A DNA stretch of 24,157 nucleotides from a virus, in the IMG/VR virus record IMGVR_UViG_3300032047_000129, positions 1-24,157 of that record. One strand, written 5' to 3'. How positions within the stretch are numbered: position 1 is the first letter of the stretch; each line of letters begins with the position of its first letter. Position numbers and translations under genes: made by a program. The notes beneath the pieces are model-generated. The model saw only the letters and a program-made list of their open reading frames with translations. It did no database searches and was not told the origin of the DNA. Positions 5,142 through 17,408 of this stretch are shown here, one piece after another.

Positions 5142-5143
5142 AT

Positions 5144-5707: not shown

Positions 5708-5730
5708 TTTATTTTAAATGGTGCGTATGA

Positions 5731-5744
5731 TAGTTGGGGAGCAG
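5731..5744 (-). promoter_or_regulatory. Copy 1 of recurring intergenic motif
   Basis: TAGTTGGGGAGCAG on the plus strand (CTGCTCCCCAACTA read in the direction of the genes), 24 bp before the ATG at 5707. A degenerate second copy, GGTTGGGTGTGCAG, follows at about 5746-5759. Three other exact copies of the 13-mer occur in this window, all intergenic and in the same orientation. Confidence 0.6.
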
Positions 5745-5760
5745 TGGTTGGGTGTGCAGG

Positions 5761-6714
5761 TTATCTACGTTCTTGTTGACCTGGTGTGGCCATTTCTTCT
5801 ATCTGCATCTGTTCAAACTTTGCTCTAAAGAAACTCATTCTTGCATCACCGTTTCTTGCTTTTAAGAAGTGTAATACTAATGTTCTATCATTCTCTATTA
5901 TATATCTATCAGGTCCATAGAACCTAATCTTTTGTTTAGCGGGTCTATTAATACCTATTAACATATCTGCATGTTGAAGCATTGCATCTGATCCAAATAT
6001 GTCTGACTCAAGTATATAGTTACCGTACTTACCATCTATAGCCCTATCCGGGTTATCTATGTTTCTATTAAGTTGTGACAAGGCAATAAATAAACAAGGA
6101 TAATCTCTTTTACATTGTGTAAAGAATTCACCTAATTCAAATAGCATATCTAATGTGCTATTCTGATATGGTGCTCTCTTGACTAACATTGTATGGTCAA
6201 GTGTTATCATTGTATTAATACCTTTATGTTTATTCATATACTGATCTATCTGATCACGCATCTGATTAACAGTCATAGGTGTACTAATTATATCTACTGG
6301 ATGCTTTACTCTTTCTTTAGCATACTGATGACACGTGTTCAGTGTATCTGTACTTAGAGTAGACCCAGCACTACATAACTCTTTATAAGTTTTACCAGTA
6401 ATAGAACTAAATTCTCTAATAGCAGATGTTCTACCTACCATCTCAAACTGAAACTCTAATACTCTAAACTTATCATTTGGATTAAGGGCAAACGATTCTC
6501 TAATGATCTGGTCTTTAATTAATGTCTTACCTGAACCAGGTCTTCCACCAATTACAGTGAGTGTGTTCCACTCTATACCATCAGTAGCTGCATCATTGAA
6601 CTTAGGCCATGGAGTATATATAGATTTTTCCTCACCGGTAGATCTAGCGTACATATATTTAAGTGCTTCATTAAAAGCAGCATATTGTCCAACCCAAGAT
6701 TCTTTCTTTTTCAT
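5761..6714 (-). CDS. dnaB: Replicative DNA helicase, DnaB C-terminal type
   Basis: 317 aa, RecA-like helicase core without the DnaB N-terminal domain. Walker A GRPGSGKT (57-64), Walker B MITLDHT (169-175), the DnaB motif ALSQLNR (211-217), and a C-terminal KARNGDARMSFF with the conserved K/R-NG loop. It would unwind DNA 5' to 3' as a hexamer at the fork with the primase at 2648-3625. ATG overlaps the stop of the upstream winged-helix gene (ATGA), so the two are coupled, suggesting a helicase-loader pair. The Walker B His after Asp (LDHT) differs from the commonest LDYL form. Confidence 0.88.
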   Translation of the reverse strand: MKKKESWVGQYAAFNEALKYMYARSTGEEKSIYTPWPKFNDAATDGIEWNTLTVIGGRPGSGKTLIKDQIIRESFALNPNDKFRVLEFQFEMVGRTSAIREFSSITGKTYKELCSAGSTLSTDTLNTCHQYAKERVKHPVDIISTPMTVNQMRDQIDQYMNKHKGINTMITLDHTMLVKRAPYQNSTLDMLFELGEFFTQCKRDYPCLFIALSQLNRNIDNPDRAIDGKYGNYILESDIFGSDAMLQHADMLIGINRPAKQKIRFYGPDRYIIENDRTLVLHFLKARNGDARMSFFRAKFEQMQIEEMATPGQQERR

Positions 6715-7301
6715 ACAACTTTTTCTTTAAAGTGATCATCTTCTGTATTGATCCCTTCTATTATTAAATCACAGTAGTCAGCAAGTCTTGAATGCTTTAC
6801 TTTGTGCTTGTCTTGCTTTGATATAAAGTATTGACTTGTTTGCATATACAAATAGTCAGCATCTCTATACTCATTAACATACATTTTAGTAGCCTTCATA
6901 ACATCATCCCATGTGTAATCATAAGTTTCAAAGAACCATCTAAAGTTTTCTCCCAATGCTTTTACGTTATTACGTGCAGGATTACCGCTTGGTAATCTTT
7001 TAGCAGGGAATATTTCTCTATATGAATTAATCTTGTCAACAAAGTTCTTACCCATTAGTTGGATATCTGTTTTCTTTTTGGCCTTTATAAAATAATTATC
7101 TAGTCTAATACAGAACATTCTTGCTTCTGGAGACATTGTATATGTACCATTCTCTTTTACTATCAAACCTAAATCAACAAGAGCTTTTTTATCTGACTCT
7201 TCTATTGACGCTAAGCCAACTTTTTGTTTCATTGAAAATAGTATAAGTGCTTGATTGGGTGTTAGCTTTTGAGCTAATATCTTTTGGAATAGTTCCCACA
7301 T
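6711..7301 (-). CDS. Probable replisome organiser / helicase loader (winged helix)
   Basis: 196 aa. Residues about 12-68 read like a winged helix (LTPNQALILFSMKQKVG, then ALVDLGLIVKENGTYTMSPE). The C-terminal half (about 95-185) is helical and Trp/Tyr rich (FRWFFETYDYTWDDVMKA, YLYMQTSQYFISKQ), as in phage replisome-organiser C-terminal regions. It ends in ATGA with the DnaB start. No ATPase motif, so it is not a DnaC-type loader. The function is inferred from the fold hint and the coupling to DnaB. Confidence 0.6.
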   Translation of the reverse strand: MWELFQKILAQKLTPNQALILFSMKQKVGLASIEESDKKALVDLGLIVKENGTYTMSPEARMFCIRLDNYFIKAKKKTDIQLMGKNFVDKINSYREIFPAKRLPSGNPARNNVKALGENFRWFFETYDYTWDDVMKATKMYVNEYRDADYLYMQTSQYFISKQDKHKVKHSRLADYCDLIIEGINTEDDHFKEKVV

Positions 7302-7338
7302 ATGTGCTTGGTTTTAAAGGTTATAAAGATACAAAATT

Positions 7339-8058
7339 CTACCATTCTATCCTATCTTTTTCAAGGTATTCTAGCTTTTCATTTACTAAATTAAATACAT
7401 CCTTACAGTCCCATTCACCACCTCTATATGCAGCTGATGCTGGGTGACTTACATAAATCTTTCTAACGTTATCCAACCACGGAGACCATGCTTCTGCTTT
7501 CTTACCAAGTAATACAAATATTAGATCTTGGTTATGTCTATTTAGATTATCAAATAGGTATTCAGTAAATGATTTCCATATTGCATAATGAGATCCTATT
7601 TTGTTTACTTCACATGTAAATGCTGTATTAATTAATAATACACCCTGGTTAGCCCAACGTCTTAGATCACATTCTTCTGGTGTATACATAACTCTACCTG
7701 TGTCAGTGTAATTACCAATAGTTTGCTTTAGTATATATTGTAAAGACTTTTCTGCTTTACCTTTTTTACTACAGCTAAATGCTATACCATCCGCAACTCC
7801 TAACTGTGGGTATGGATCTTGGCCTACCATTACAACTTTTACTTTATCATATGGACACTCATAGAATGCATTGAATATGTCTTTGAACTTTGGTGTAAAT
7901 CTTCTACCTGCATTTACATTATTTACAAGCTCATTTACTATATGATCAAAGCTAAGACCATTTATATATGGAGATAGCATTGTATCCCAACCGCTTTCTA
8001 TTAATTTTTTATTTAAATTTTCTCTAAGATTTATTATGTCTACTTGAACTTTTTCCAT
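7339..8058 (-). CDS. ung: Uracil-DNA glycosylase, family 1
   Basis: 239 aa, normal UDG length. The water-activating loop is GQDPYP (79-84) with catalytic Asp81, where cellular enzymes usually have GQDPYH. Then ADGIAFS (89-95), LLINTAFT (141-148) for uracil recognition, and SHPASAAYRGG (204-214) with His205 in the place of the HPSPLS loop. It removes uracil from DNA, which would limit misincorporated dUMP or cytosine deamination damage. It lies alone at the end of a minus-strand run, divergent from the plus-strand gene at 8094. No sign of inactivation; the changed loops may tune activity or inhibitor sensitivity. Confidence 0.93.
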   Translation of the reverse strand: MEKVQVDIINLRENLNKKLIESGWDTMLSPYINGLSFDHIVNELVNNVNAGRRFTPKFKDIFNAFYECPYDKVKVVMVGQDPYPQLGVADGIAFSCSKKGKAEKSLQYILKQTIGNYTDTGRVMYTPEECDLRRWANQGVLLINTAFTCEVNKIGSHYAIWKSFTEYLFDNLNRHNQDLIFVLLGKKAEAWSPWLDNVRKIYVSHPASAAYRGGEWDCKDVFNLVNEKLEYLEKDRIEW

Positions 8059-8075
8059 AAATTATATTATATTTG
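8044..8075 (+). promoter_or_regulatory. Bacteroidota-type promoter for plus-strand island
   Basis: TATATTTG (8068-8075) matches the TAnnTTTG -7 box, and TTG at 8044-8046 lies 21 bp upstream, matching the -33 box spacing. The ATG at 8094 follows 18 bp after the box. The promoter overlaps the 5' end of the UDG gene, and would transcribe away from it. Confidence 0.65.
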
Positions 8076-8093
8076 TATTCTAAATTAATTAAT

Positions 8094-8540
8094 ATGTCTG
8101 AATCTTTACAAACTTATTCTACTTATGATCACTCAAAGGTTATTAAAAATATTGAGTGTTCTACTGTTTACATTACTTCACTCCAAAATATTATTACAAA
8201 TGATATTTTAGAAAGTGACTATGCAGATAATATTGCATACACCTTTAAAAAATTTGAAAAGATAGTTGATGTTGCAACCAGAAAAAATAATGGTGAAGAT
8301 GTATCTGAGGATGATATAAAAAATCTTCCTAAGCTTGATCAATTTGAGTCAAGAATATACACTTTGTTTTCTCTACTACAAGAGCTAAAATATAAAGCAC
8401 AGAAACAAGGTCTTGAACAGAAGACTGAAACTTCTGCAACTAAAGATGAACTTAGAGAGGTTGCTGAGATGATGAAGAGAGGAGAAGATATAACTGAGAA
8501 GTTCAAGGATCTTCAATCTAAATTAAAAGTTGTAAAGTAA
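8094..8540 (+). CDS. Hypothetical helical protein of plus-strand island
   Basis: 148 aa from ATG at 8094, chosen over the in-frame ATG at 8073 because 8073 lies inside the putative promoter and 8094 has the AT-rich leader (TAATTAATTAAT). The protein is strongly helical and charged; the C-terminus (TKDELREVAEMMKRGEDITE, KFKDLQSKLKVVK) is a probable coiled coil. No family recognised. It is the only reading-strand exception within the minus block and is coupled by TAATG to a 46-aa basic ORF. Could be an independently acquired (moron-like) unit. Confidence 0.7.
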   Translation: MSESLQTYSTYDHSKVIKNIECSTVYITSLQNIITNDILESDYADNIAYTFKKFEKIVDVATRKNNGEDVSEDDIKNLPKLDQFESRIYTLFSLLQELKYKAQKQGLEQKTETSATKDELREVAEMMKRGEDITEKFKDLQSKLKVVK

Positions 8541-8680
8541 TGCCTAAGAAAAGAAAACTTAATAGTAAAAATCCTAAGTACTTACCTAAAGATGCTATTA
8601 AAGAACCTGCTGTATTAGAAAAGAGATTAATTAATCCTAAAGCAAAGCATAAAGCTTATGCTGTTTTCTTATCATCTTAA
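8540..8680 (+). CDS. 46-aa basic protein coupled to upstream gene
   Basis: ATG at 8540 shares its A with the previous stop (TAATG). The product starts MPKKRKLNSKNPKYLPKDAI and ends KAYAVFLSS; about a third of residues are Lys/Arg. Its stop at 8678-8680 overlaps the convergent minus-strand gene ending at 8672. The junction type, identical to those in the late block, argues that it is translated. Function unknown; a nucleic-acid-binding peptide is possible. Confidence 0.5.
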   Translation: MPKKRKLNSKNPKYLPKDAIKEPAVLEKRLINPKAKHKAYAVFLSS

Positions 8681-9055
8681 CTGCATACCACCAAAATCTC
8701 CTATTTCCATAGCAGCTTGTATAGCCAAGTTTAGTTCTTCTTTATCACATTTAGCAAAGGACTTACAGTATTCTACATTGTTTCTCATAAAACATAAACC
8801 CGCTCTACGCTTGACTTGTAGTTTAACCTCTTCAAATGTATGACCTATTTCATTTGCTATCTCTCTAATCATAGCATGTATCCTTGCTAGCTGCGGGTTA
8901 CTACCTTTACCATCATTGACACCAATAAATATATCCAACCTTACACTCTCAGGCTGATCTTTTAAAAAGTTTTTAAATTTAATTTCATATGCTTTTATAG
9001 GGAAATGTAATTCCCCATCTTTTACACGTGCTTCTACAAACAATTGATCCTTCAT
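8672..9055 (-). CDS. Hypothetical protein, possibly NinB-like
   Basis: The frame is open from 9115, but ATG at 9055 overlaps the stop of the upstream gene as ATGA and gives 127 aa starting MKDQLFVEARV; I prefer that start. It contains QLARIHAMIREIANEIGHTF and then a basic segment with cysteines (VKRRAGLCFM, CKSFAKCDKEELN). The helical arrangement after a beta-rich N-terminus is reminiscent of NinB-type recombination proteins, but this is a weak impression. It converges with the plus-strand island, overlapping by 9 bp. Confidence 0.6.
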   Translation of the reverse strand: MKDQLFVEARVKDGELHFPIKAYEIKFKNFLKDQPESVRLDIFIGVNDGKGSNPQLARIHAMIREIANEIGHTFEEVKLQVKRRAGLCFMRNNVEYCKSFAKCDKEELNLAIQAAMEIGDFGGMQLR

Positions 9056-9237
9056 ACAAGTTGACTTAACATTATTAATATTCCCATTAGGATTATACAA
9101 ATCATTACAGTCCAAGCAGCAAATTTCTCTGTTGCTTCTACTCTGTGTCTGGATCTACCTTGTCTATACTTAATATCTTCTTCTGTCATTTCTGGTTTCT
9201 TAAGATATTCTTTACCGTTATTTGCAAAATGTTTCAT
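9052..9237 (-). CDS. Small single-pass membrane protein
   Basis: 61 aa: a charged N-terminal part (KHFANNGKEYLKKPEM, KYRQGRSRHRVEA) and one C-terminal transmembrane segment (about 43-60, VMICIILMGILIMLSQLV). It starts 2 bp after the 3D-domain gene stop and ends as ATGA with the next start. This tail-anchored layout near a secreted cell-wall protein fits a holin-like, superinfection or envelope role, none of which is demonstrated. Confidence 0.6.
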   Translation of the reverse strand: MKHFANNGKEYLKKPEMTEEDIKYRQGRSRHRVEATEKFAAWTVMICIILMGILIMLSQLV

Positions 9238-9239
9238 AA

Positions 9240-9590
9240 TTATTTATCTAAATATATTGTTACGTTATCCCACTTACCACCTTTCATAGATTCATTAACT
9301 AAGAAATCTATTCTGTGTGTCCATCTTTTATTCATTCTATCTTGTACTATCCAATAGCCATCCATTGGACCTGCATTCTCTACACATACACGTGTACCAA
9401 ATGTATAACCCAAAGCTTCTAAGTCTCTAGATACTGCTATCCATCTATGTCCACCAGGATTATCTTTATCTATAACTTTATTAGATGCTGTAATAAATGG
9501 TGTGCTGTCTGTCTGACCAGGAACTGCATGATATATAGTGGCTGTAACTGAAATTTTTAAACCTATTAGTATTGTTAGTATTGTTTTCAT
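9240..9590 (-). CDS. Secreted 3D-domain (double-psi barrel) protein
   Basis: 116 aa. The first ~20 residues (MKTILTILIGLKISVTATIY) look like a signal peptide or membrane anchor. The rest resembles the 3D (three-Asp) domain found in MltA and related murein-binding/hydrolase proteins: an early ITASNKVID, then WIAVSRDLEALGYTFGTRV, VQDRMN and RIDFLV, matching the AVdp.lplGt.v, v.Dtgg and riD positions. It probably acts on or binds peptidoglycan in the periplasm. It is far from the late endolysin gene and on the early strand, so entry-exclusion or early envelope modification is possible. Confidence 0.68.
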   Translation of the reverse strand: MKTILTILIGLKISVTATIYHAVPGQTDSTPFITASNKVIDKDNPGGHRWIAVSRDLEALGYTFGTRVCVENAGPMDGYWIVQDRMNKRWTHRIDFLVNESMKGGKWDNVTIYLDK

Positions 9591-9607
9591 ATTTTATTGT
9601 AGTGTAC

Positions 9608-9666
9608 TACGGACTGAGTAATAGTATTAACTGTTCTGGCAAAATTGCCTTTATACCCAGTCCGTA
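9608..9666 (-). terminator. Nested inverted repeat between two minus-strand genes
   Basis: TACGGACTG (9608-9616) pairs perfectly with CAGTCCGTA (9658-9666), enclosing a small hairpin GGCAAAATTGCC (9638-9649). It lies 8 bp after the stop of the 9675-9935 gene and 17 bp before the 3D-domain start. There is no long U tract, so it may be an mRNA-processing or regulatory structure instead of a simple terminator. Confidence 0.5.
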
Positions 9667-9674
9667 ATAACCTG

Positions 9675-9935
9675 TTATTCTTCTATTGATTCTAGTATCT
9701 CTTCTTCTACAAGTTCTAAGTCCAAGTACTCTTCTTCAATTAAATCTTTCACATCTACATGTACAAGGTGTCCTCTTCTATCTTTCAATGCAACCCATAC
9801 GTTAGTTATTGTTACTAATGATGGTGATCCGGGATAACCACTACCATCTGCGTAGTAGTCAATAGCCCTTTCTCCTTTGGTATAGTCATATTCCATATCA
9901 AGTACTTTACCATTATGATCATATGTATACTCCAT
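9675..9935 (-). CDS. Acidic hypothetical protein
   Basis: 86 aa. N-terminal beta-like portion with YDYTKGERAIDYYADGSG and GYPGSPSLVTITNVWVALKD, and a very acidic C-terminus (IEEEYLDLELVEEEILESIE). Small proteins with a similar D-G-x-G-Y-P-G-S-P core are, to my memory, widespread in tailed phages with no assigned function. The start codon shares a base with the stop of the zinc-ribbon gene upstream, so the two are coupled. Confidence 0.65.
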   Translation of the reverse strand: MEYTYDHNGKVLDMEYDYTKGERAIDYYADGSGYPGSPSLVTITNVWVALKDRRGHLVHVDVKDLIEEEYLDLELVEEEILESIEE

Positions 9936-10249
9936 TACTTAAATCTTAGAGTATTTTTATCTACAATAACAAACTCTTGGCCACAATCTAGACATTCTAC
10001 TTCTGTCTCATTATTTATTGTGCTATGTAGCCTTGAATGTGCAAAACAATTAGGACACACATATTTTATACCAACTTCTATATCATTATAACTTGGCTTT
10101 CTAAATTTATTAGGGTCACGTTTACTACGTTCATCATCACTGATCCACTCTTCCACGCTAACACGTGCCATGTCTTGTATATATGCATCATGGCTACCTT
10201 GGTACTTCTCTTCCATCTGGGCCATAAATATTTCTTTCATTCTTCCCAT
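9935..10249 (-). CDS. Zinc-ribbon protein
   Basis: 104 aa. The C-terminal half has CPNC (65-68) and CLDC (86-89), a four-cysteine ribbon ending in the common CGQEF strand. The N-terminal half is helical and charged. Zinc ribbons of this kind often bind nucleic acid or recruit polymerase; here there is no further clue. It is 2 bp after the SF2 helicase stop and overlaps the next gene by one base. Confidence 0.65.
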   Translation of the reverse strand: MGRMKEIFMAQMEEKYQGSHDAYIQDMARVSVEEWISDDERSKRDPNKFRKPSYNDIEVGIKYVCPNCFAHSRLHSTINNETEVECLDCGQEFVIVDKNTLRFK

Positions 10250-10251
10250 AT

Positions 10252-11352
10252 CTATTTATTTAAAGGATTATATAATTTAATTTTATTCTCATCAAACGAC
10301 TTTAATGCTGATTCCACCCATCTTTCATCTTGTGTACCTTTGTAACACAGTATATGACAAGTTGCTGTCTCAGTAGGATTAAGTCTTAGTAATCTACCTA
10401 TCCTTTGAGCAGTCTTTTTTTCATTGCCATACGCATGCATTATAACACCTTGCTTTAAATTAGGTATTGATACTCCTTCACTCAATTGTAATACACATGA
10501 TAGTTTACTTATCCTGCCATCAGAGAACAATTCTAAATTATCCTCTGACTTTGGATTCTTTGAATGATAACTATGTTTACATATTCTGTCTGCTTGTGCT
10601 TGAGTATTAGCAAAGACAATACATTTACTATCAATGTTTTTAATCATACTCTTTACATAGCTCTCTTTACTTGTATAATCCATCAAAGCTCTCATTCTCA
10701 TTATCCTTGCAAACTGAATTTGCTTTTGAGTTTGAGCATCTGCTAATCTAGATGTTACATAGTTATAATCTTTATATTCTGATGTCCACCAGTGTCCACC
10801 ATTCTTATTTTTCTTTTTAAGTGCTGGTAACTTGGACAGTTCTAATTGATGTACAATTATCTTGTAATCATTTAATATTTTTGAATCAGTAGCTTTGTCT
10901 ACATCAAAACTATATCTAATAGGACAGTACTTCTGTACTAATTTACCCTTATCTGACTGCTTATTTCTTGGTGGTGTACCTGTTAGTCCTAATATCTTAC
11001 CTTGAAACTGTGATAAGAATACTTCATGGCCTGGTAATATAGAGTGACACTCATCTAGATAAACTATATCATAATCATTTGGATTATGTTTCTTGAGTGA
11101 TAAATAAGTAGTAAATGTAATATGATCTTCTAAGGTATTGTTATTCATATTATCTAATTCATCATACCAAGACTTCATTACTGAGGTTTTTGGTATTACT
11201 ACTAAAACATTTATAAATGGATTAAAATTCTTTAATAAATGATTAATTGCAATTCTAGTTTTACCAACACCCATTGATATCCCTAGACCACATCTTTTAT
11301 GTTGCATTGCTATTGCTAATGCATCTGCTTGGACTATATCTCTACTATTCAT
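10252..11352 (-). CDS. SF2 DEAD/H-type helicase (UvsW/RAD25-like)
   Basis: 366 aa. Motif I GISMGVGKT (24-32), motif Ia VVIPKTS (51-57), motif II DECH (100-103), motif III LTGTPP (123-128), and C-terminal domain motifs IV (CIVFANT, 244-250), V (SEGVSIPNL, 291-299) and VI QRIGRLLR (316-323). Both RecA-like domains are present and intact, compact compared with cellular SF2 enzymes. Phage relatives such as UvsW unwind branched DNA and R-loops and shift replication to recombination-dependent mode. ATG overlaps the stop of a 31-aa membrane peptide gene as ATGA. Confidence 0.88.
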   Translation of the reverse strand: MNSRDIVQADALAIAMQHKRCGLGISMGVGKTRIAINHLLKNFNPFINVLVVIPKTSVMKSWYDELDNMNNNTLEDHITFTTYLSLKKHNPNDYDIVYLDECHSILPGHEVFLSQFQGKILGLTGTPPRNKQSDKGKLVQKYCPIRYSFDVDKATDSKILNDYKIIVHQLELSKLPALKKKNKNGGHWWTSEYKDYNYVTSRLADAQTQKQIQFARIMRMRALMDYTSKESYVKSMIKNIDSKCIVFANTQAQADRICKHSYHSKNPKSEDNLELFSDGRISKLSCVLQLSEGVSIPNLKQGVIMHAYGNEKKTAQRIGRLLRLNPTETATCHILCYKGTQDERWVESALKSFDENKIKLYNPLNK

Positions 11353-11444
11353 AATATAACTTTTAATATATTAGACCATATTAGGTATGTGATTAATAAT
11401 ATTAGTAACCATACCCACGGTTTAATATTGAAATTCTTTTTCAT
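11349..11444 (-). CDS. 31-aa single-pass membrane peptide
   Basis: ATG at 11444 to TGA at 11351-11349. The product begins MKKNFNIKPW and continues with a hydrophobic run (VWLLILLITYLIWSNILKVI) long enough to cross a membrane. The stop overlaps the helicase start (ATGA), and the ATG is 5 bp after the HNH gene stop, so the ORF fills the gap exactly. These junctions make it a likely real gene although it is very short. A membrane-anchoring, toxic or superinfection-type peptide is possible. Confidence 0.6.
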   Translation of the reverse strand: MKKNFNIKPWVWLLILLITYLIWSNILKVIL

Positions 11445-11449
11445 ATTGT

Positions 11450-11722
11450 TTATTTAGATCTTGGTATTGAGTAACCTAATTCAATTGCTTCTGCAGGATG
11501 TTCTTCTATCCACATATGGCAATTTCTACAAACAGGTAGCCACGTGTTTACATCTAAATGATGTAAACCACGGCCCTGTTTATGATGGACATCTGTTGCG
11601 TGTAAACTACACTTGTGTATCTTAGCATGACATACTGGATGATCCATTAAATACTTCCTACGCAATTTTGCATATGAAGCATTAGTCTTTGACATTTTCT
11701 TAGAGTATTTCTTAATTGCCAT
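11450..11722 (-). CDS. HNH endonuclease
   Basis: 90 aa. Zinc/active-site residues are in order: Cys31, Cys38, HH at 46-47 (DVHHKQGRG), Asn59 (LDVNTWLPVC), Cys65 and CxxC/H at 65-69 (CRNCHMWIEEHP). A lysine-rich N-terminus (MAIKKYSKKMSKTNAS) would contact DNA. Standalone small HNH proteins in phages nick or cut DNA, often for packaging, recombination or homing; here it sits among helicase and unknown genes and away from the terminase. It overlaps the previous gene by 11 bp. Confidence 0.85.
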   Translation of the reverse strand: MAIKKYSKKMSKTNASYAKLRRKYLMDHPVCHAKIHKCSLHATDVHHKQGRGLHHLDVNTWLPVCRNCHMWIEEHPAEAIELGYSIPRSK

Positions 11723-12239
11723 TTGATTTTATAGTAAAGTAATTCCTTGGTAATAGACCTAGTGACATAAACTTTAGTATAACATCTTCATAGTTAATAC
11801 CTAACTCTTTGAAAGTCATAGTGTTAGTGTAATCATCTAACACTTCTTCTGGTGGAAATGAAGCTATGTATTGAGCCAATGAAGAATGCTTAAAAGTTGT
11901 ACTAAGATAATGATTTATTTTCTTATTACAAAGCATTTGCTTCCATGCATTGAGCTCTTTCTGTGCTCTTTTCCATACCCTTGTTATTCTACGTTTCTTG
12001 TCCCAATGAAGTTTTCTAACTTCTTCAGGTTTATAAACCTTTAATCCATGTAGTACACGTTTAAATAAAAAATGTTGATAAGGATTAAGTTTAGAATATT
12101 GAAATGAATTGATGATTGATGGTGGGTGTAATTGATATTCATCATATAGACCCAAATATTGGTAGCGTTCTACACGCTTACTAAGCTTGGATTCAGCCTC
12201 ACTTAGTTTTAGTTGTTGTAGTTGTTCCTGTGATAGCAT
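11712..12239 (-). CDS. Hypothetical basic helical protein
   Basis: 175 aa, not recognised. It is rich in Lys/Arg, Tyr and Trp (KLHWDKKRRITRVWKRAQKE, LNAWKQMLCNKK), with a probable N-terminal coiled coil (EQLQQLKLSEAESKLSKRVE). The composition suggests nucleic-acid binding. It is the first gene after the strong 12283-12338 hairpin and overlaps the HNH gene by 11 bp, so it starts a transcription unit leading into HNH, TM peptide and SF2 helicase. Confidence 0.6.
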   Translation of the reverse strand: MLSQEQLQQLKLSEAESKLSKRVERYQYLGLYDEYQLHPPSIINSFQYSKLNPYQHFLFKRVLHGLKVYKPEEVRKLHWDKKRRITRVWKRAQKELNAWKQMLCNKKINHYLSTTFKHSSLAQYIASFPPEEVLDDYTNTMTFKELGINYEDVILKFMSLGLLPRNYFTIKSNGN

Positions 12240-12282
12240 ACTTGTTTAGGTTTTAGTTATAGATTATGTTAAGTAATATAAA

Positions 12283-12338
12283 ATTAGCTCAGCCTGGTAG
12301 GTAATGAATTACCGTACACCCCAGGATTCTGAGCTAAT
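12283..12338 (-). terminator. Multi-tier hairpin terminator with tRNA-like word
   Basis: ATTAGCTCAG (12283-12292) pairs perfectly with CTGAGCTAAT (12329-12338); then CCTGG (12293-12297) pairs CCAGG (12321-12325) with a 3-nt bulge; then GGTAA (12300-12304) pairs TTACC (12309-12313). On the minus strand the structure is followed by TTTTATATT, so it can terminate the 12357-12923 transcript. The left arm mimics a tRNA D-arm (AGCTCAGCCTGGTAG) but no complete tRNA can be folded. Confidence 0.7.
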
Positions 12339-12356
12339 CTTATGATTTATAGTTTA

Positions 12357-12923
12357 TTAAAGAGTAAAATCTTCAACAACTTCTTCTACATTATCTGTAA
12401 CTTCAACCACATCTTCTACTTCATCTACTTTCTCTTCAGATTCTAAACCAAATGCTTCAGCAGGCTTAACTTCTTTGTTAATCTTTGCTGTTGTAGCAGT
12501 TCCATTTGCTAATCTGATTTCTTCTCCGTTATCATGTGCTATCAATACATCTTCAACAGTTGCATCTGAACTATAAGATGTTTTCCTATAAATAGGTTCT
12601 CCATCTACTGAACAAACAACACCCGTTTGACCTGCCATTTTTAAATGTTGGTTAGGGTTTTCATTGTTAAATGGATTTAATTTCTCTGTGATAACAATTC
12701 TACCTGATAATTTCTCACCGGCAGTCCATTCTAAAGCTTCTAATGCTTCTATTTTACCACCAATAATAGCACTTAATGGTACATAGTCAACAAAGCTGTT
12801 AGAGTTAATCATAACTCTCTTTTGAGTTACTCTGATAAAGCCAAATTCTGGTTTGTTTTTAGATTGACGGACAACATTACCCATCTCATCCGCTTCAACG
12901 GTTACTTGATTTTTCTTTTGCAT
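12357..12923 (-). CDS. Hypothetical protein with acidic SSB-like tail
   Basis: 188 aa. The body is beta-rich (FGFIRVTQKRVMINSNSF, SGRIVITEKLNPFN, GVVCSVDGEPIYRK) and may hold a small barrel. The last ~40 residues are almost all Glu/Val/Asp and end VVEDFTL, a tail like those of ssDNA-binding proteins. It is bounded by a strong terminator, suggesting separate, high-level expression. It could be a second ssDNA-binding or DNA-mimicking protein; I do not recognise a family. Confidence 0.62.
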   Translation of the reverse strand: MQKKNQVTVEADEMGNVVRQSKNKPEFGFIRVTQKRVMINSNSFVDYVPLSAIIGGKIEALEALEWTAGEKLSGRIVITEKLNPFNNENPNQHLKMAGQTGVVCSVDGEPIYRKTSYSSDATVEDVLIAHDNGEEIRLANGTATTAKINKEVKPAEAFGLESEEKVDEVEDVVEVTDNVEEVVEDFTL

Positions 12924-12964
12924 TTTTAATAAAATTTAAGTGTGAATAAAATAATTGTTGATGA

Positions 12965-13234
12965 TTAGATATCATCTGAATGGAAATACGGATCATCTAA
13001 TTTCTCAAAAGAAGTTACTTCATCCAATGCCGGTTCATTCTCAAGAATCATTTCATTCTCTACAAATGTTGGTACTGAATTGCGTTTATAACTACTATTG
13101 TAAAATGGATCACCCACTTCCTTTGTATACGCTGAACTTAGACCATTAAGGTCATTATACTCATCATCTGAGAGAGATAAGTACTGTTCAACTGAACATT
13201 CTATTATACGTCCATTAGGAAGTTGTATTATCAT
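12965..13234 (-). CDS. Hypothetical phage protein (MIIQLPNGRIIE type)
   Basis: 89 aa. The N-terminus MIIQLPNGRIIECSVEQYLS, then LSDDEYNDLNGL, resembles a small conserved phage protein that I recall from Bacteroidota and marine phages with no function. The C-terminal half is acidic and disordered (NEMILENEPALDEV). The start codon lies in the arm of an inverted repeat (13233-13262). Confidence 0.65.
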   Translation of the reverse strand: MIIQLPNGRIIECSVEQYLSLSDDEYNDLNGLSSAYTKEVGDPFYNSSYKRNSVPTFVENEMILENEPALDEVTSFEKLDDPYFHSDDI

Positions 13235-13262
13235 TATCTTAAATTATTATTGTAAAGATAAT
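13233..13262 (-). promoter_or_regulatory. Inverted repeat covering a start codon
   Basis: ATTATCTT (13233-13240) and AAGATAAT (13255-13262) form an 8-bp stem with a 14-nt loop. One arm overlaps the first bases of the ATG at 13234-13232. In mRNA it could hide the start; in DNA it could be an operator. AT-only stems arise easily in this genome, so this is tentative. The rest of the 13,235-13,343 gap shows no gene. Confidence 0.35.
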
Positions 13263-13343
13263 AATATAACTCTTCCTGTATCAGTATAATTAAATGAATT
13301 TAGGCTTTATGCCAAATTATATTGCATATATATAGCTAACGTT

Positions 13344-13595
13344 TTAGACTATATGTATCTTTCTACCAACTCTTTTTATGTATTGGTAGTGTTTTAGCTC
13401 TTTAATCCATCTATGTATGCTAGATTGACTTGAGCCAAGGTCATCTGCTAATCTACTTATAGATGGAAAGCAGGTTCTCTCTTTATTAGAGTAACATGCC
13501 AGCAAACTATATAGTGCTTTAGACTGAACAGATAAATTTATATCTGTAATGACCTTATGTGATACTATGCCAAATCTATTTAAAGTCTTGTGCAT
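13344..13595 (-). CDS. Helix-turn-helix (HTH_36-like) DNA-binding protein
   Basis: 83 aa. Residues 22-75 match the HTH_36/replication-initiator winged-helix pattern: LSVQSKALYSLLACYSN, CFPSISRLADDLGSSQSSIH with the recognition helix, then IKELKHYQYIKRV as the wing. It is short, with only the DNA-binding domain. Possible regulator or origin-binding protein, coupled by a 20-bp overlap to the 65-aa gene upstream. Confidence 0.75.
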   Translation of the reverse strand: MHKTLNRFGIVSHKVITDINLSVQSKALYSLLACYSNKERTCFPSISRLADDLGSSQSSIHRWIKELKHYQYIKRVGRKIHIV

Positions 13596-13773
13596 GATCT
13601 TTTAATAATATAAGCATTGCCATACCTTCATCCTTTTCTTTCTGTAGAACAGGGTCATTTAGGGCATACTTATTATTCATATATTGTGCAAAGCTATCAG
13701 CATAATGTTTTCTTATGCTATTGTAGTTCTTTTGCTCATTTTGAATTAACTGTATAGATAATTTAGGTGCCAT
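13576..13773 (-). CDS. Hypothetical 65-aa helical protein
   Basis: Mostly helical and charged (IQNEQKNYNSIRKHYADSFA, DPVLQKEKDEGMAMLILLKD). Starts 1 bp after the stop of the 162-aa gene and overlaps the HTH gene by 20 bp, so it belongs to this operon. No family recognised. Confidence 0.5.
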   Translation of the reverse strand: MAPKLSIQLIQNEQKNYNSIRKHYADSFAQYMNNKYALNDPVLQKEKDEGMAMLILLKDHAQDFK

Positions 13774-13774
13774 A

Positions 13775-14263
13775 TTACTTTTCTTTTTTAAAATACTTAA
13801 TTGATTTCTTATCTACCTTATGTAAATGCATAGGATTAAAGGTATCTTCTACATATTTTATCTGGTGCTTATCATCATGATATAGTAGATTAACTTTTAT
13901 TCTACTATAAAACGGATTAAACACTGAACTGGTGGACCATGATTCATCATCTACTACTTGACCATATACTTTGCCATCACTTGGTAACAAACCCATTTCT
14001 TTTAGATAATCAGGTTCATACTCTTGGTTAACATGGAATGATTTAGGTTTTACTATTACATAATCACCTACTTTGACAGGCTTATACTCTTCTTCTATCA
14101 TCATAAGATGCACTATACACTCTATGTGGTGTGAGCTTAACTCTCTAAGTAGTATATCTTTTATGTGATCTGCGTTATGAGCATAGTTTACATTATCATT
14201 ATCTATTAATTCCTTGAATATATTATGTATTATTATTTTATGTACTTCATATGTATCTGCCAT
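13775..14263 (-). CDS. Hypothetical protein, possible SH3-like barrel
   Basis: 162 aa. N-terminal helical third (EVHKIIIHNIFKELIDND), then a beta-rich section (KVGDYVIVKPKSFHVNQEYE, SDGKVYGQVVDDE, RIKVNLLYHDD) of the kind seen in small SH3-like domains. First gene after the structured 14,264-14,487 intergenic region; its ATG is 30 bp past a TAGTTGGGGAGCAG copy. Function unknown. Confidence 0.62.
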   Translation of the reverse strand: MADTYEVHKIIIHNIFKELIDNDNVNYAHNADHIKDILLRELSSHHIECIVHLMMIEEEYKPVKVGDYVIVKPKSFHVNQEYEPDYLKEMGLLPSDGKVYGQVVDDESWSTSSVFNPFYSRIKVNLLYHDDKHQIKYVEDTFNPMHLHKVDKKSIKYFKKEK

Positions 14264-14292
14264 ATTCTTTTATTTTTTATATAAGTGGTTAA

Positions 14293-14306
14293 TAGTTGGG
14301 GAGCAG
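14293..14306 (-). promoter_or_regulatory. Copy 2 of recurring intergenic motif
   Basis: TAGTTGGGGAGCAG, identical over 14 bp to copies at 5731 and 16996. It lies 30 bp before the ATG of the 13775-14263 gene and 18 bp beyond the base of a 57-nt hairpin (14325-14381). Confidence 0.6.
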
Positions 14307-14324
14307 AAAACTCCTTAATTAAAA

Positions 14325-14381
14325 AATCAGCTACAGACTCCCTAAAACAAGTATGAGAAAAGGGAGAATGTAGTTCTGATT
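14325..14381. repeat. Long imperfect hairpin in 14,264-14,487 gap
   Basis: Three stems line up: AATCAG/CTGATT (14325-14330, 14376-14381), CTACA/TGTAG (14331-14335, 14369-14373) and CTCCCT/AGGGAG (14338-14343, 14361-14366), separated by symmetric 2-nt internal loops and capped by a 17-nt A-rich loop. Stem sequence is not low complexity, so this looks like selected RNA or DNA structure. The gap of 224 bp holds no ORF. Confidence 0.6.
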
Positions 14382-14425
14382 CTTTGGTGACCACTCAATC
14401 AACCATTAGCTTTTACGACAGGGCC

Positions 14426-14453
14426 ATTATGTTAGTTATTATATAAACATAAT
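14426..14453. repeat. Inverted repeat ATTATGTT/AACATAAT
   Basis: ATTATGTT (14426-14433) and AACATAAT (14446-14453) with a 12-nt AT loop. The left arm belongs to an 11-mer CATTATGTTAG that also occurs at 16335-16345, and CATTATGTT also at 17183. Confidence 0.4.
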
Positions 14454-14474
14454 AATACTGGTATTGTTAGTGTG

Positions 14475-14484
14475 TCACCGGTGA
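14475..14484. promoter_or_regulatory. Perfect palindrome TCACCGGTGA
   Basis: A 10-bp perfect palindrome, GC-rich for this genome, 3 bp beyond the stop of the DUF4846 gene. A related word GGTGACCAC occurs at 14386-14394 and again at 17215-17223. Candidate operator or protein-binding site. Confidence 0.4.
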
Positions 14485-14487
14485 TAG

Positions 14488-15321
14488 TTATTTTATAAAT
14501 CTTCTTAGTTGTCCAGGTGTGAATGTGTACTCTGGTGTGATGATATAATTTAAATCATCAAGTGAGAACCATACATCTCTGGTAAGAGGATTCATAACAA
14601 TCTGTTGTTCTTGTGCTGGCATAAAGCTCTGTGCTAGCATAAATATCTTATGGCCATTCTCATTTACAGCCATATCAACAACAGTCATAGCGTGTCCTGG
14701 ATATCCGCCTTGGATAAATATATCTCCTGGCTCCATTTCAAACATGGATATTGCATAGGTATCATCACCTTCTAGTGATGCTGTACCTGCATAGTTCCAT
14801 ATTAGGTCTAACCATTGTCTGAAAGTCTTACAACTATCTTCTCTTGGTTGCCCTATTTTTCTGATGAGGTCTCTACCCCCATTCATTTCTACATAATTAT
14901 AACCTTGTAAATAATCCAAATAGCTTGACTCTATACCATTAGTGAAGGTATAGGTCAATCTATCCAGAAACCCATTGCTATAATTATATGATGCTCTAAG
15001 ATATATAGCTGCATCTGCACAATGATGTAGGTCTCTGTCACCTATTTCATAGTCAAATACTGCTACATATATATCTCTGCTATCTTTCAGCGTACCATCA
15101 TAGTACATAACCTGATTATTCCTTTTCAAAGGATGGGCTATTAACCATTCTGAGTAAGCGTCTTTTGCAAATCTTTCATATCCATCATAAGGTTTGAACG
15201 TATTTTCTATTGTTCTGTTACCTTTATAGGATTGACTTGATGCTACAAGAGCACAAAGCATTAATGCTAATGTGATCAATTGTAGTCTTAGTACGTTTTT
15301 ACTATATTTTATATCTCTCAT
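14488..15321 (-). CDS. Secreted DUF4846 protein
   Basis: 277 aa. An N-terminal signal peptide (LRLQLITLALMLCALVASSQ, about 12-31) is followed by features of DUF4846: SEWLIAHPLKRNNQVMYYDG, DYEIGDRDLHHCADAAIYLR, a PGDIFIQGGYPGHAMTVVD segment and a MLAQSFMPAQEQ segment, then NPLTRDVWFS. The Cys in HHCAD and His in GYPGHA could form a papain-like pair, but no activity is known to me. The family is largely cellular and from Bacteroidota, so this looks like a host-derived auxiliary gene acting in the periplasm. It is coupled (ATGA) to the two-TM gene upstream. Confidence 0.8.
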   Translation of the reverse strand: MRDIKYSKNVLRLQLITLALMLCALVASSQSYKGNRTIENTFKPYDGYERFAKDAYSEWLIAHPLKRNNQVMYYDGTLKDSRDIYVAVFDYEIGDRDLHHCADAAIYLRASYNYSNGFLDRLTYTFTNGIESSYLDYLQGYNYVEMNGGRDLIRKIGQPREDSCKTFRQWLDLIWNYAGTASLEGDDTYAISMFEMEPGDIFIQGGYPGHAMTVVDMAVNENGHKIFMLAQSFMPAQEQQIVMNPLTRDVWFSLDDLNYIITPEYTFTPGQLRRFIK

Positions 15322-15680
15322 AATTCTAAACTATATTGTGATTTTTTTTTAAACTTTGCATGAACTTCTAATACCATAAACGGTACTATTATTATTGTTT
15401 CCAAACCTCTTGGTGTACATTTACATCCGATTGATAAACCTATAATAGGTTCAAATGCAAAATCATGGAAACTAAATGTAGGTAACATGCTTACTTTACG
15501 CATCTTTGTGTAATAAAACAGTCCATTCAGCATAGTAAGAAATATCACGGTTATTAATAATATTACTATAGTTCCTGATACAGGGTTATATATCATATAG
15601 TAAGATGTAACTATTGGTACGAGGATTGGCAATATAACTACAAATATAGCTTTAATTATTGCTCTAAATAAATTTTTCAT
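15318..15680 (-). CDS. Two-TM membrane protein
   Basis: 120 aa. Two hydrophobic segments at about 10-29 (KAIFVVILPILVPIVTSYYM) and 34-56 (VSGTIVILLITVIFLTML), a third weaker one near 95-108 (LETIIIVPFMVLEV), and a basic C-terminus (KFKKKSQYS). No family recognised. Its stop overlaps the DUF4846 start and a strong terminator lies upstream, so it heads the two-gene envelope unit. A holin-like role cannot be excluded. Confidence 0.62.
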   Translation of the reverse strand: MKNLFRAIIKAIFVVILPILVPIVTSYYMIYNPVSGTIVILLITVIFLTMLNGLFYYTKMRKVSMLPTFSFHDFAFEPIIGLSIGCKCTPRGLETIIIVPFMVLEVHAKFKKKSQYSLEL

Positions 15681-15705
15681 AATTGTTTTTGTTTAATGGG
15701 TTAAT

Positions 15706-15730
15706 AAAAAGAGGGAAGTTTCCTTCCCCC
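15706..15730 (-). terminator. Rho-independent terminator after lipoprotein gene
   Basis: Minus strand: eight paired bases (GGGGGAAG/CTTCCCTC, one G-T) around a GAAA tetraloop, followed by TTTTTATT. Plus coordinates of the stem are 15711-15718 and 15723-15730, U tract 15706-15710. This is a textbook intrinsic terminator 11 bp after the 51-aa lipoprotein stop. Confidence 0.88.
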
Positions 15731-15740
15731 GATTGAGTGA

Positions 15741-15896
15741 TTAACATCTTGTCATTTTCTGTTTCTTTGCATTCCAACATTTGTTGTACATTTTCTTTTT
15801 GTACTTCTGTGTTTTGCAAGTTCTTGAAGAACCACAAGATTGAATAGCTGGTCCTGCAACGAACAGGAACAACAATAGGTAGATAACTCTCTTCAT
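15741..15896 (-). CDS. 51-aa lysine-rich lipoprotein
   Basis: ATG at 15896, TAA at 15743-15741. MKRVIYLLLFLFVAGPAIQS is a lipoprotein signal ending at the lipobox Cys21 in AIQSCGSS, followed by a short, very basic tail with three more cysteines (Cys27, 40, 51; KYKKKMYNKCWN). It fills the space between the 95-aa gene and a strong terminator. Small phage lipoproteins of this size include outer-membrane spanins; a second one is at 17941. No inner-membrane spanin partner is evident, so the role stays open. Confidence 0.72.
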   Translation of the reverse strand: MKRVIYLLLFLFVAGPAIQSCGSSRTCKTQKYKKKMYNKCWNAKKQKMTRC

Positions 15897-15898
15897 AA

Positions 15899-16186
15899 TT
15901 AATTGTTATTATAGATTATTTGATTTATATCAAAGTGTGTACTATGCTGTACTTCTACAACATTATGGTACGATGCTAAGTATCTTAACGAGTCATTAGC
16001 AATAAGTTCTGCTTCAAGGTTACTCATTGAAGGAGATCCTAATTCATTACGATGTATAACTAAAGATTCTGCGTTATCACCACTAAAGAAATTGACATTA
16101 ACATCTTGTTCTCTAGTGAATAGGACTAAGCCTATTTGGTTACGATGCTGAACAAAGAGTTCAGGCTTAAGGATTTTAATTTTCAT
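15899..16186 (-). CDS. Hypothetical 95-aa protein
   Basis: Mixed alpha/beta, with KIKILKPELFVQHRNQIGLV, FTREQDVNVNFFSGDNAE and a polar C-terminus (THFDINQIIYNNN). No family recognised. Followed after 2 bp by the lipoprotein gene, with which it shares the terminator at 15706-15730. Confidence 0.55.
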   Translation of the reverse strand: MKIKILKPELFVQHRNQIGLVLFTREQDVNVNFFSGDNAESLVIHRNELGSPSMSNLEAELIANDSLRYLASYHNVVEVQHSTHFDINQIIYNNN

Positions 16187-16260
16187 ATACTTGTTATTAA
16201 GGGTTATTGCAATATTGCGGGTACTATGCCTATTATCCTATAGAGGAATAGACATATATA

Positions 16261-16334
16261 ACTAGAGTGCTTATCCATATTGGCTGACACTATTTCAGAA
16301 TAGTCAGTGGTATTGCTTGACTCATTACTCTAGT
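16261..16334. repeat. Nested inverted repeat in 16,187-16,530 gap
   Basis: Outer arms ACTAGAGT (16261-16268) and ACTCTAGT (16327-16334) enclose an inner hairpin: CTGA/TCAG (16284-16287, 16304-16307) and CTATT/AATAG (16290-16294, 16299-16303) with a TCAG loop. Another short hairpin lies at about 16231-16250. The 344-bp gap has no ORF; beside this it holds the two terminators at 16460-16523 and, at 16381-16440, GTGGTAAA repeats and CACACAGTGTG. Looks like a structured leader or small RNA. Confidence 0.5.
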
Positions 16335-16459
16335 CATTATGTTAGCTATATATATATTATAAGCAGTAACTAATTTTATTTAGTGGTAAAAGGTGGTTAT
16401 TTGTGGTAAATGGATGTCACACACAGTGTGCAACGTGCATAATAAATAAAAATAAAGGA

Positions 16460-16479
16460 GGTAACTATGCATAATTACC
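16460..16479 (-). terminator. Second of two tandem terminators
   Basis: GGTAA (16460-16464) pairs TTACC (16475-16479) around an inner palindrome TATGCATA (16466-16473). On the minus strand it is followed by TCCTTTATTTTTATTT. Lies downstream of the stronger hairpin at 16500-16523. Confidence 0.6.
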
Positions 16480-16499
16480 TTTTTATTGTAAAACAAAGG

Positions 16500-16523
16500 A
16501 GCAAGGAGGTAACCCCCCTTGCT
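16500..16523 (-). terminator. First of two tandem terminators
   Basis: AGCAAGG (16500-16506) and CCTTGCT (16517-16523) pair perfectly, extended inside by GG/CC across one mismatch, and are followed on the minus strand by TTTGTTTTAC. It is 8 bp after the stop of the 16531-16920 gene. Two terminators in tandem suggest that this gene is strongly transcribed as a single unit. Confidence 0.72.
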
Positions 16524-16530
16524 TTTGCTG

Positions 16531-16920
16531 TTAAACTGCAAGCTTACCCCAAAATAAGGTAGTGCTTGGCTCTTCTTTCATCTCTCCTGTTTCATTACCG
16601 TCTGCATCTTTTACAGGAATACTGTTGATTACAGGCTTATTTAGGTCAATGTCTACCCACTCTACAGGGTCATTCATCTTGTAGCCTTTCTCAAGCTCAT
16701 CCCAAATAGGGTGATTGATTCTACAGTACTCTTGTGTTTCTCCGTCTTGCATAGACTTAAGGACAAACTTTACATCAGGTGTTGATGTTTGAGACACTTT
16801 TCTTGGGCCTATGCCCGGAATGTTAATCTCTTTCACAGTTGTTACAATTGGTTTAGTAGTCAATTGTAGAGTTGCTTTCCCTGTTTTAGGGTTACGGTTT
16901 ACTTTATTAAAATATAGCAT
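16531..16920 (-). CDS. Hypothetical 129-aa protein, monocistronic
   Basis: Beta-rich and mostly soluble: KVNRNPKTGKATLQLTTKPI, IPGIGPRKVSQTSTPDVKF, then WVDIDLNKPVINSIPVKDAD and a final FWGKLAV. No family recognised. It is the first gene of the minus block next to the divergent switch region, flanked by motif copies upstream and tandem terminators downstream; this is the layout of an abundant early product, such as a host-takeover or DNA-binding protein. Confidence 0.6.
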   Translation of the reverse strand: MLYFNKVNRNPKTGKATLQLTTKPIVTTVKEINIPGIGPRKVSQTSTPDVKFVLKSMQDGETQEYCRINHPIWDELEKGYKMNDPVEWVDIDLNKPVINSIPVKDADGNETGEMKEEPSTTLFWGKLAV

Positions 16921-16995
16921 AATTAAGGATTTTAAGTTATATACACGGCTTATATGTATATTAAATTGTTTAAGAGTAATAGCCTACTCATTTAT

Positions 16996-17009
16996 TAGTT
17001 GGGGAGCAG
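16996..17009 (-). promoter_or_regulatory. Copy 3 of recurring intergenic motif
   Basis: TAGTTGGGGAGCAG, 76 bp before the ATG at 16920 and identical over 14 bp to copies 1 and 2. Confidence 0.55.
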
Positions 17010-17185
17010 AGCGGTTATATACATAGAGCAGATTGCTTATATATACATACACACTTAGTCTTCCGTTGGTAGAGCAGTAGTAGAAATGATTGTAGTTACA
17101 ATACATAGATAGTACATACTCCTGTGCTTTGTTGTAGTGTAGTCTTTTCTTCTGTGTAGCAGACTTTTTTTATATAGCTACACAT

Positions 17186-17193
17186 TATGTTTG
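17186..17193 (+). promoter_or_regulatory. TATGTTTG promoter-like box
   Basis: Matches the Bacteroidota TAnnTTTG -7 element and points toward the late block, 215 bp before the first late ATG. No TTG is found at the -33 position, only a T tract, so the call is tentative. Confidence 0.4.
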
Positions 17194-17234
17194 ACACCCT
17201 GCATTTCTACGGGGGGTGACCACACTTCAAATTT

Positions 17235-17247
17235 TAGTTGGGGAGCA
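17235..17247 (-). promoter_or_regulatory. Copy 4 of recurring intergenic motif
   Basis: TAGTTGGGGAGCA, identical over 13 bp to the other copies but followed by A instead of G. No annotated minus-strand gene begins close downstream, which separates this copy from the other three. Confidence 0.5.
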
Positions 17248-17408
17248 ATCTAATAGAACCTCTTGCACATGCCAAACACACAATTTTTTGGGGGGCAAAA
17301 AAAAATTTTACTGGAAGGCGGGGCATATTAGTGAGTCAAACACTTTTATAAAAACTAAAAATTCATTATATTGTTTGTATAGAAGAGTTTCTAACTAAAT
17401 AAAAAATT

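Follow-up and report, generated by a model that had tools for sequence, protein, structure and literature searches.

Results

An early promoter candidate in a marine crAss-like phage

The DNA analysed here, called the window, is a linear virus fragment of 24,157 nucleotides (nt; IMG/VR record IMGVR_UViG_3300032047_000129). It carries four intergenic copies of a word, CTGCTCCCCAACTA in the minus-strand reading, all pointing into a replication/early gene block on the minus strand. We estimate a probability of roughly two in three that this word belongs to an early promoter of a marine crAss-like clade, a unit of about 23 bp with a start at or next to a G, probably used by an injected giant RNA polymerase. 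In the proposed mechanism, the word TCTGCTCCCNARCTA would be the recognition part and would be followed by six AT-rich base pairs and then by G(C); RNA would start at or next to this G, and transcription would run into the replication/early block. The most likely enzyme would be a giant two-barrel RNA polymerase carried in the virion. Copy 4, within a composite site A, would open the block, and copy 3, a B-type site (B site), would serve the first gene with an RNA that begins with a short hairpin. In this lineage, copies 1 and 2 would be additional promoters that arose within the block. Promoter activity, the start base and the enzyme used are what we infer from the sequence; the word itself is real and, judging by its conservation, very likely functional.

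Three copies are exact (5731-5744, 14293-14306 and 16996-17009), and the fourth (17235-17248) matches at 13 of 14 bases, the last being mismatched. A first-pass annotation had reported these four copies, all on one strand and outside genes, and had placed three of them 24, 30 and 76 bp before minus-strand start codons (ATG 5707, 14263 and 16920). Both points were confirmed, and the degenerate tandem copy that it described after copy 1 is present (plus-strand TGGTTGGGTGTGCAG). Recurrence beyond chance also held: with up to three mismatches, 1.07 matches are expected in the window and 6 occur, a count reached by none of 100 shuffles. The two extra matches, with three mismatches each, lie at 9434 (-) and 13460 (+).

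The window matches one stretch of a 107,860-bp contig (L006/G001; 99.93% identity, reverse orientation), in which the early/replication block (about 22.9-48 kb) occupies a single strand and the structural and giant-protein genes lie nearly all on the other strand, facing it. We scanned this genome with a profile of 23 columns, for which 70 site groups from relatives were used and this phage's sites and copies 1 and 2 of the nearest lineage were left out. The same four sites scored 24-30 bits, with no clear fifth; the next-best match lies within a late gene at 11.8 bits, and six shuffled genomes gave at most 13.4 bits. A sister genome, G006, has three sites, all intergenic and in the early orientation, and a single clear site was seen in G002 (18.8 bits) and in G010 (18.0 bits). 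Across the four genomes there are eight matches with at most one mismatch, all in the early direction and seven of them intergenic. The word is thus neither scattered nor present in both orientations, either of which the first-pass annotation had regarded as grounds for discarding it.

The position of the copies bears on a reading in which the word is a replication-origin or packaging repeat, marking a DNA-handling site near the divergent region. Copies 3 and 4 do lie in the divergent region where the GC skew changes sign, but the distance from copy 3 is about 2.7 kb for copy 2 and about 11 kb for copy 1, and the skew also follows the gene strand and changes again near 48 kb. We give this reading very little credence, and a replication origin was rejected as the main explanation because copies 1 and 2 lie inside the gene block, before start codons and in the same orientation.

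Conservation of the sites in relatives

Related loci were taken as the best 80 per search. For the divergent region we compared 63 sources (56 neighbouring-gene loci, 2 earlier loci and 5 genomes or genome pieces), which are not independent, as 14 have a site window identical to another. Site A was found in 48 of the 63 as AAARTTRTGTRTTTKGCRTG, about 20 bp, TCTGCTCCCCARCTA, WWWWTTG and then GG..GGGTACCCCC. Six of the 15 sources without it hold fewer than 500 bases towards the divergent region, and the 15 include L262 and L264, which have a more diverged site A with three mismatches (TAATCCCCAACAA...TTTTTTGAG...TACCCCC). The ACCCCC on the downstream side is invariant in 27 of 27 site A groups, and the upstream block is also conserved; these extra blocks may be a leader structure, a facing late promoter or regulator-related. 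Of the 34 sources in which at least 1.5 kb of sequence follows site A, 28 have a further B-type site within that stretch. B-type sites have just the 23-bp unit in common. As a separate observation, some relatives could pair the two sides of site A (TTGAGG/CCTCAA, TTGTGG/CCACAA).

The first-pass annotation had made its case depend on the word standing at the same sites in relatives. This proved correct for copies 3 and 4, which have counterparts in many relatives, but not for copies 1 and 2, which are lineage-specific. At the copy 1 junction the word is present in 9 of 76 relatives and absent in 67; at 63 of these 67 word-less junctions the last letters of the helicase gene are ATGA, so that its stop codon shares bases with the start codon that follows. 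In the window, 53 bases separate the two genes, which suggests that copy 1 is a gain by which an overlapping gene pair was split. Both copies recur in one other lineage (copy 1 in L045, L048, L051 and L054; copy 2 in the L051 record and L261).

We found that the element is nearly absent from cellular genomes. With at most one mismatch, TGCTCCCNARCTA gave 37 matches and the reversed-pattern control 3; with up to two mismatches the control gave 12 against 40, and two-mismatch matches alone mean little. The exact pattern TCTGCTCCCYARCTANNNNTTGC occurs in 54 IMG/VR stretches, and all 54 are relatives, each giving two or more tblastn matches (1e-8) to a 314-protein panel drawn from four of the clade's genomes, and with the pattern in site A or plain B-type surroundings. 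A slightly looser pattern was found in just 3 stretches among 84,980 bacterial and archaeal genomes (GTDB). One of these, L339, is crAss-like (34 panel matches, both sites), and the other two match 0 of the 314 panel proteins. L339 (WLWP01000004.1) is binned in a Pseudomonadales metagenome-assembled genome, which is probably a binning error.

Anatomy of the 23-bp element

In relatives the unit has the form TCTGCTCCCNARCTA-N6(AT-rich)-GC, and outside the word it is mainly the preceding TC and the G at a fixed distance that are conserved. The first logo took in loci fetched by the exact 23-bp pattern, which inflated TC and TTGC; the recount given here leaves them out and uses 19 A and 33 B site groups (80% identity) not fetched by that pattern. 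Site groups were defined by at most one mismatch to the word, so that conservation of the word itself in the logos is by construction, and the 33 B groups include two chance sites inside other genes (L199 and L275). Position 19 is G in 19 of 19 A groups and 30 of 33 B groups; the three without it are copy 2, the relative of copy 1 in L169 and one site, inside a late gene, that is there by chance. In B groups T(-2) is kept in 26 and C(-1) in 29 of 33. The six spacer bases are A or T at 109 of 114 positions in A groups and 169 of 198 in B groups, compared with 75% AT further downstream of B sites.

Beyond the 23-bp unit, the flanks of B sites are essentially without conservation. The distance from the G to the first ATG (open reading frames of at least 50 codons) varies from 17 to 512 nt in B sites and from 53 to 379 nt in A sites; therefore, the unit is not tied to translation. 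Furthermore, the copy 3 spacer differs between near-identical genomes (ATAAAT, ATATAT, ATAATT), with word and hairpin constant. The element is thus conserved, has one orientation and keeps a fixed geometry to the presumed start base, as is expected of a promoter for a phage-encoded early RNA polymerase, with copy 2 and the L169 site as exceptions. We read it as a stand-alone promoter for a dedicated polymerase because the word is GC-rich, the next six bases are AT-rich, the G is fixed, the orientation is early, the leaders are variable and no other fixed partner is found.

An operator, in which the word would bind a phage-encoded regulator that switches early transcription from other promoters, could account for the GC-rich word, for the weak tandem ACCCAAC copies upstream of copy 1 and of its relative, for the restriction of the clear sites in four genomes to control regions and for the further conserved blocks of site A. 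However, the word is not palindromic, and B sites keep just TC, the AT-rich six and the G at a fixed distance, so that the partner promoter would be missing; boxes of the host type are not enriched either. We therefore consider an operator unlikely.

Separately, 20 of 51 B groups have an inverted repeat of 5-7 bp ending 0-8 nt before TC-TGCTCCC, as do 3 of 27 A groups and 3 of 51 downstream controls. The stems differ (CGTGCT/AGCACG, GGCATT/AATGCC, GCTGCGC/GCGCAGC; for example in L254, L266, L284, L287, L320 and L331), and the repeat was not found at the window copies.

A hairpin at first-gene sites

At B sites that precede the first gene of the early block, a hairpin starts at or next to G19. 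The window version is GAGTA-GGCTAT-TACTC, and relatives carry GCACA-GGTAAT-TGTGC, GCATA-GGTAAT-TATGC and others. Among ten hairpin sequences, chosen after inspection and aligned in the register of position 18/19, 48 of 50 positions pair, and 0 of 20,000 arm permutations did as well. In the six hairpins whose first base is G19 itself, 30 of 30 positions pair, and three pairs differ on both sides; this pairing and covariation score were reached by 4 of 500 column shuffles, and slid registers paired at 4-67%. RNA folding placed the copy 3 hairpin at the 5' end of the leader. Among its options, the first-pass annotation had suggested a conserved element of the 5' untranslated region. This stands in part: the covarying hairpin after the word at copy 3 would form the 5' end of the RNA, but the word itself is read as promoter.

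These data also speak to a reading in which the word acts in RNA, by cleavage or antitermination, and in which processing leaves G19 as a 5' end that the hairpin protects. The hairpin that covaries at or next to G19 in the first-gene B sites would suit it, as would the location of B sites downstream of site A and the excess of terminator-like hairpins at window 13700-17500 (both strands; 11 listed, of which some overlap, with 1.4 expected). Against it, site A heads the block and has late-strand genes on its other side, the six bases before the G are AT-rich and free in sequence, like a melting region, and a hairpin is missing from this position at copies 1 and 2. On balance, an RNA element seems improbable. 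Two strong terminator-like hairpins lie inside the early block (window 16523-16500 and 15730-15711, -).

The parent phage and its polymerase

We found that the parent phage encodes the hallmarks of Crassvirales: a giant RNA polymerase protein with a DFDxD catalytic motif, a homologous large terminase and a genome of about 100 kb with two facing gene blocks. Its 1906-aa (amino acid) protein matched 65 phage records, the 30 listed being mostly crAss-like 'RNA-polymerase subunit' entries at 23-25% identity. It adjoins a giant protein of 4565 aa with the motif ADFDIDKV, which corresponds to SDFDIDKM in phi14:2 gp66, an annotated catalytic subunit. The terminase matched 126 phage records, of which the 15 listed were mostly uncultured cr-phages from gut (24-26% identity) that we take to be crAss-like. 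The polymerase-subunit and terminase matches and the ADFDIDKV motif thus mark the parent as a marine crAss-like phage that encodes an RNA polymerase of its own. A PDB sequence search with 3578 aa of the giant protein and with the 1906-aa protein gave no match, and phmmer found none between the giant proteins and the phi14:2 pieces, which have the catalytic motif alone in common.

Phages of this kind are very abundant, and the crAss virion RNA polymerase belongs to a two-barrel class close to the RNA-interference polymerases. The structure of one crAss-like giant virion RNA polymerase has reportedly been solved. We propose the virion enzyme as the user of the element because it is the early-infection enzyme of crAss-like phages, the catalytic motif is encoded and host boxes are not enriched. 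One of the options in the first-pass annotation was a promoter for a phage-modified polymerase; a promoter does fit best, but the phage's own injected polymerase appears likelier than a modified host enzyme, because there are no fixed host boxes, the 23-bp unit is nearly confined to crAss-like relatives and the motif is encoded.

Comparison with known promoters

Housekeeping promoters of Bacteroidota have the form TTG/TAnnTTTG, with a -7 box TAnnTTTG and a -33 TTG. As the first-pass annotation had noted, the word does not resemble them. In 128-bp site windows, TAnnTTTG was found in 1 of 27 A and 0 of 51 B groups, against 1.8 and 3.7 expected, and together with an upstream TTG again in 1 of 27 and 0 of 51. 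Use of the site by the Bacteroidota housekeeping sigma factor might be suspected from TA-N3-TTTG, which follows the word in 28 of 78 groups (14 of 27 A and 14 of 51 B, against 2.0 and 3.9 expected, counts partly inflated because the retrieval pattern of some loci contained TTGC), but this spacing is one base longer than in the known box. The rarity of the 23-bp pattern in the GTDB genomes also speaks against such use. A host promoter is thus highly improbable, and it was rejected as the main explanation because TAnnTTTG is below chance and B sites have no conserved -33 TTG.

A passage in a review (PMC10136315) ties the early genes of phage phi14:2 to its virion RNA polymerase and to rifampicin-resistant early transcription. 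The parent phage resembles the cultured crAss-like phage phi14:2, whose virion RNA polymerase (gp66) carries out this early transcription, in its order, in an early block that faces a structural block and in the DFDID motif. The same word was not found before phi14:2 early genes: its early control DNA has no early-strand match with up to three mismatches, and the phage has no profile match of at least 8 bits (418 of 100,418 bases unread). The divergent region has one three-mismatch match, on the opposite strand. The 5,606 bases of phi14:2 early intergenic DNA contained no word of at least 9 bases (at least 30% GC) repeated three times. As a side observation, the early/late divergent region of the phi14:2 record (L336, near 98026) contains TTGGGGAGTATCCCCAA, with a 7-bp stem and a 3-nt loop, which recalls N4 promoter hairpins.

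The N4 enzyme is T7-like, and the crAss enzyme is two-barrel. According to passages of PMC4496689, the N4 virion RNA polymerase is injected and uses few early-gene promoters, with a GC-rich heptamer just upstream of the start. Our element is similar in its proposed injected polymerase, in its few promoters before early genes and in a GC-rich heptamer near the start. However, N4 requires inverted repeats around the heptamer, and here stems of at least 5 bp around the word are near background: 1 of 51 B sites (1.0 expected; 119 of 200 shuffles reach 1), 3 of 27 A sites (1.1 expected; 17 of 200 shuffles reach 3) and none of the four window copies. An N4-type hairpin promoter was rejected on this ground. 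In Thermus phage P23-45, as described in parts of PMC10770324, motifs upstream of mapped starts were assigned to the gp96 and gp64 polymerases, with conservation in relatives as support. Both the conserved motifs upstream of phage-polymerase starts and this line of support are shared with our case. The same parts of that paper describe an AT-rich motif for the virion enzyme and a GC-rich one for the non-virion enzyme, and the starts were mapped experimentally there, whereas here they are predicted.

Genes downstream of the sites and other features

The features of the window are listed in Table 1. The family of the 129-aa first gene stands after site A or a B site in relatives. Its product gave a confident model (predicted local distance difference test score 91.9), and most top structural matches were single-stranded DNA-binding proteins (SSBs), all weak (best Foldseek E 0.017, template modelling score about 0.3, Z at most 4.0). 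In two contigs (L238 and L287), first-gene paralogues follow both site A and a B site. The 187-aa gene after copy 1 is followed by a Sak4-like gene (4458-5141) and then by the primase gene (2648-3625). None of the three genes directly downstream of copies 1-3 has a family in PHROGs or Pfam.

Table 1. Coordinates of the element copies, associated structures, genes and gene blocks in the window
Feature	Position	Strand	Description
Copy 1 (c1)	5723..5745	-	23-bp element ACTGCTCCCCAACTATCATACGC; putative +1 G at 5724, 17 nt before ATG 5707
Copy 2 (c2)	14285..14307	-	Element TCTGCTCCCCAACTATTAACCAC; 23 nt before ATG 14263; no conserved G at position 19
Copy 3 (c3, B-type site)	16988..17010	-	Element TCTGCTCCCCAACTAATAAATGA; putative +1 G at 16989, 69 nt before ATG 16920
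Hairpin GAGTA-GGCTAT-TACTC	16974..16989	-	Starts at putative +1 of c3; stem covaries among relatives
Copy 4 inside site A	17212..17287	-	23-bp element at 17227-17249, G at 17228; in relatives' divergent region
Site A flanks at copy 4	17269-17287 (upstream block); 17212-17217 (downstream ACCCCC)	-	Kept in relatives
First gene of early block, 129 aa	16531..16920	-	Mainly beta strands, confident model; weak SSB/OB-like matches
162-aa gene	13775..14263	-	Directly downstream of c2; no assigned function
187-aa gene	5144..5707	-	Directly downstream of c1; no assigned function
Early/replication block	16,920 down to 1	-	Helicases, Sak4-like protein, primase, RusA-like nuclease
Facing block	from 17,409	+	Endolysin, terminase start

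Rfam at gathering thresholds gave no match within the window. The facing block gave just short matches to genes of other marine phages in DNA searches against phages, and window 5000-12900 gave none; tblastn of two early proteins in phages also gave no match. On the facing block, window 18721-19011 (+) encodes a 96-aa protein of PHROG 7595 with relatives in at least 595 IMG/VR stretches, and 71 of the 80 best stretches have no match to the word at two mismatches. The DNA around this gene matches roseophage, pelagiphage and HMO-2011 genomes.

Discussion

Several observations weigh against an early promoter. Copy 2 and the L169 relative of copy 1 are without the G. On the strand that they share, site A precedes the B sites, which makes a role at the RNA level possible, and the extra conserved blocks of site A are left unexplained by a promoter. 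Six of 34 sources (L251, L258, L259, L260, G002 and G010) have no second site within 1.5 kb of site A, and 4 of 78 site groups overlap open reading frames of at least 100 aa, L199 and L275 clearly being chance sites. For the hairpin, one of the covariation measures, the three pairs changed on both sides, was reached by 47 of 500 shuffles, and a blind test at G19 (p<=0.05) was near background, with 6 of 51 B groups (4 at a control offset) and 3 of 27 A groups (control 5). Because of this all-site result, and because copies 1 and 2 have none, we limit the hairpin claim to the first-gene subset: the hairpin belongs to first-gene sites and not to the promoter unit. Finally, because the early control DNA of phi14:2 is without an early-oriented word, the word is a feature of the clade and not a general crAss promoter.

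With these points weighed, the early promoter remains our preferred explanation, and the three-way interpretation of the first-pass annotation (promoter, operator or leader element) is partly supported. A fuller version, which we hold more tentatively and at somewhat less than even odds, is that the element would be a double-stranded, sequence-defined promoter of a crAss-like virion RNA polymerase: a 23-bp unit, made up of recognition word, melting six and start G, that was gained at new positions within the early block and that, at the first gene, is linked to both an SSB-like product and a 5'-terminal RNA hairpin. A literature search, whose coverage excluded the primary phi14:2 paper, where a published motif is possible, found no stated crAss-like promoter sequence. 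For the 23-bp candidate a start base is predicted, and variants and site-loss controls occur naturally, which would make promoter recognition by this class of polymerase testable. In addition, the element may serve as an early-gene marker for annotating marine crAss-like genomes.

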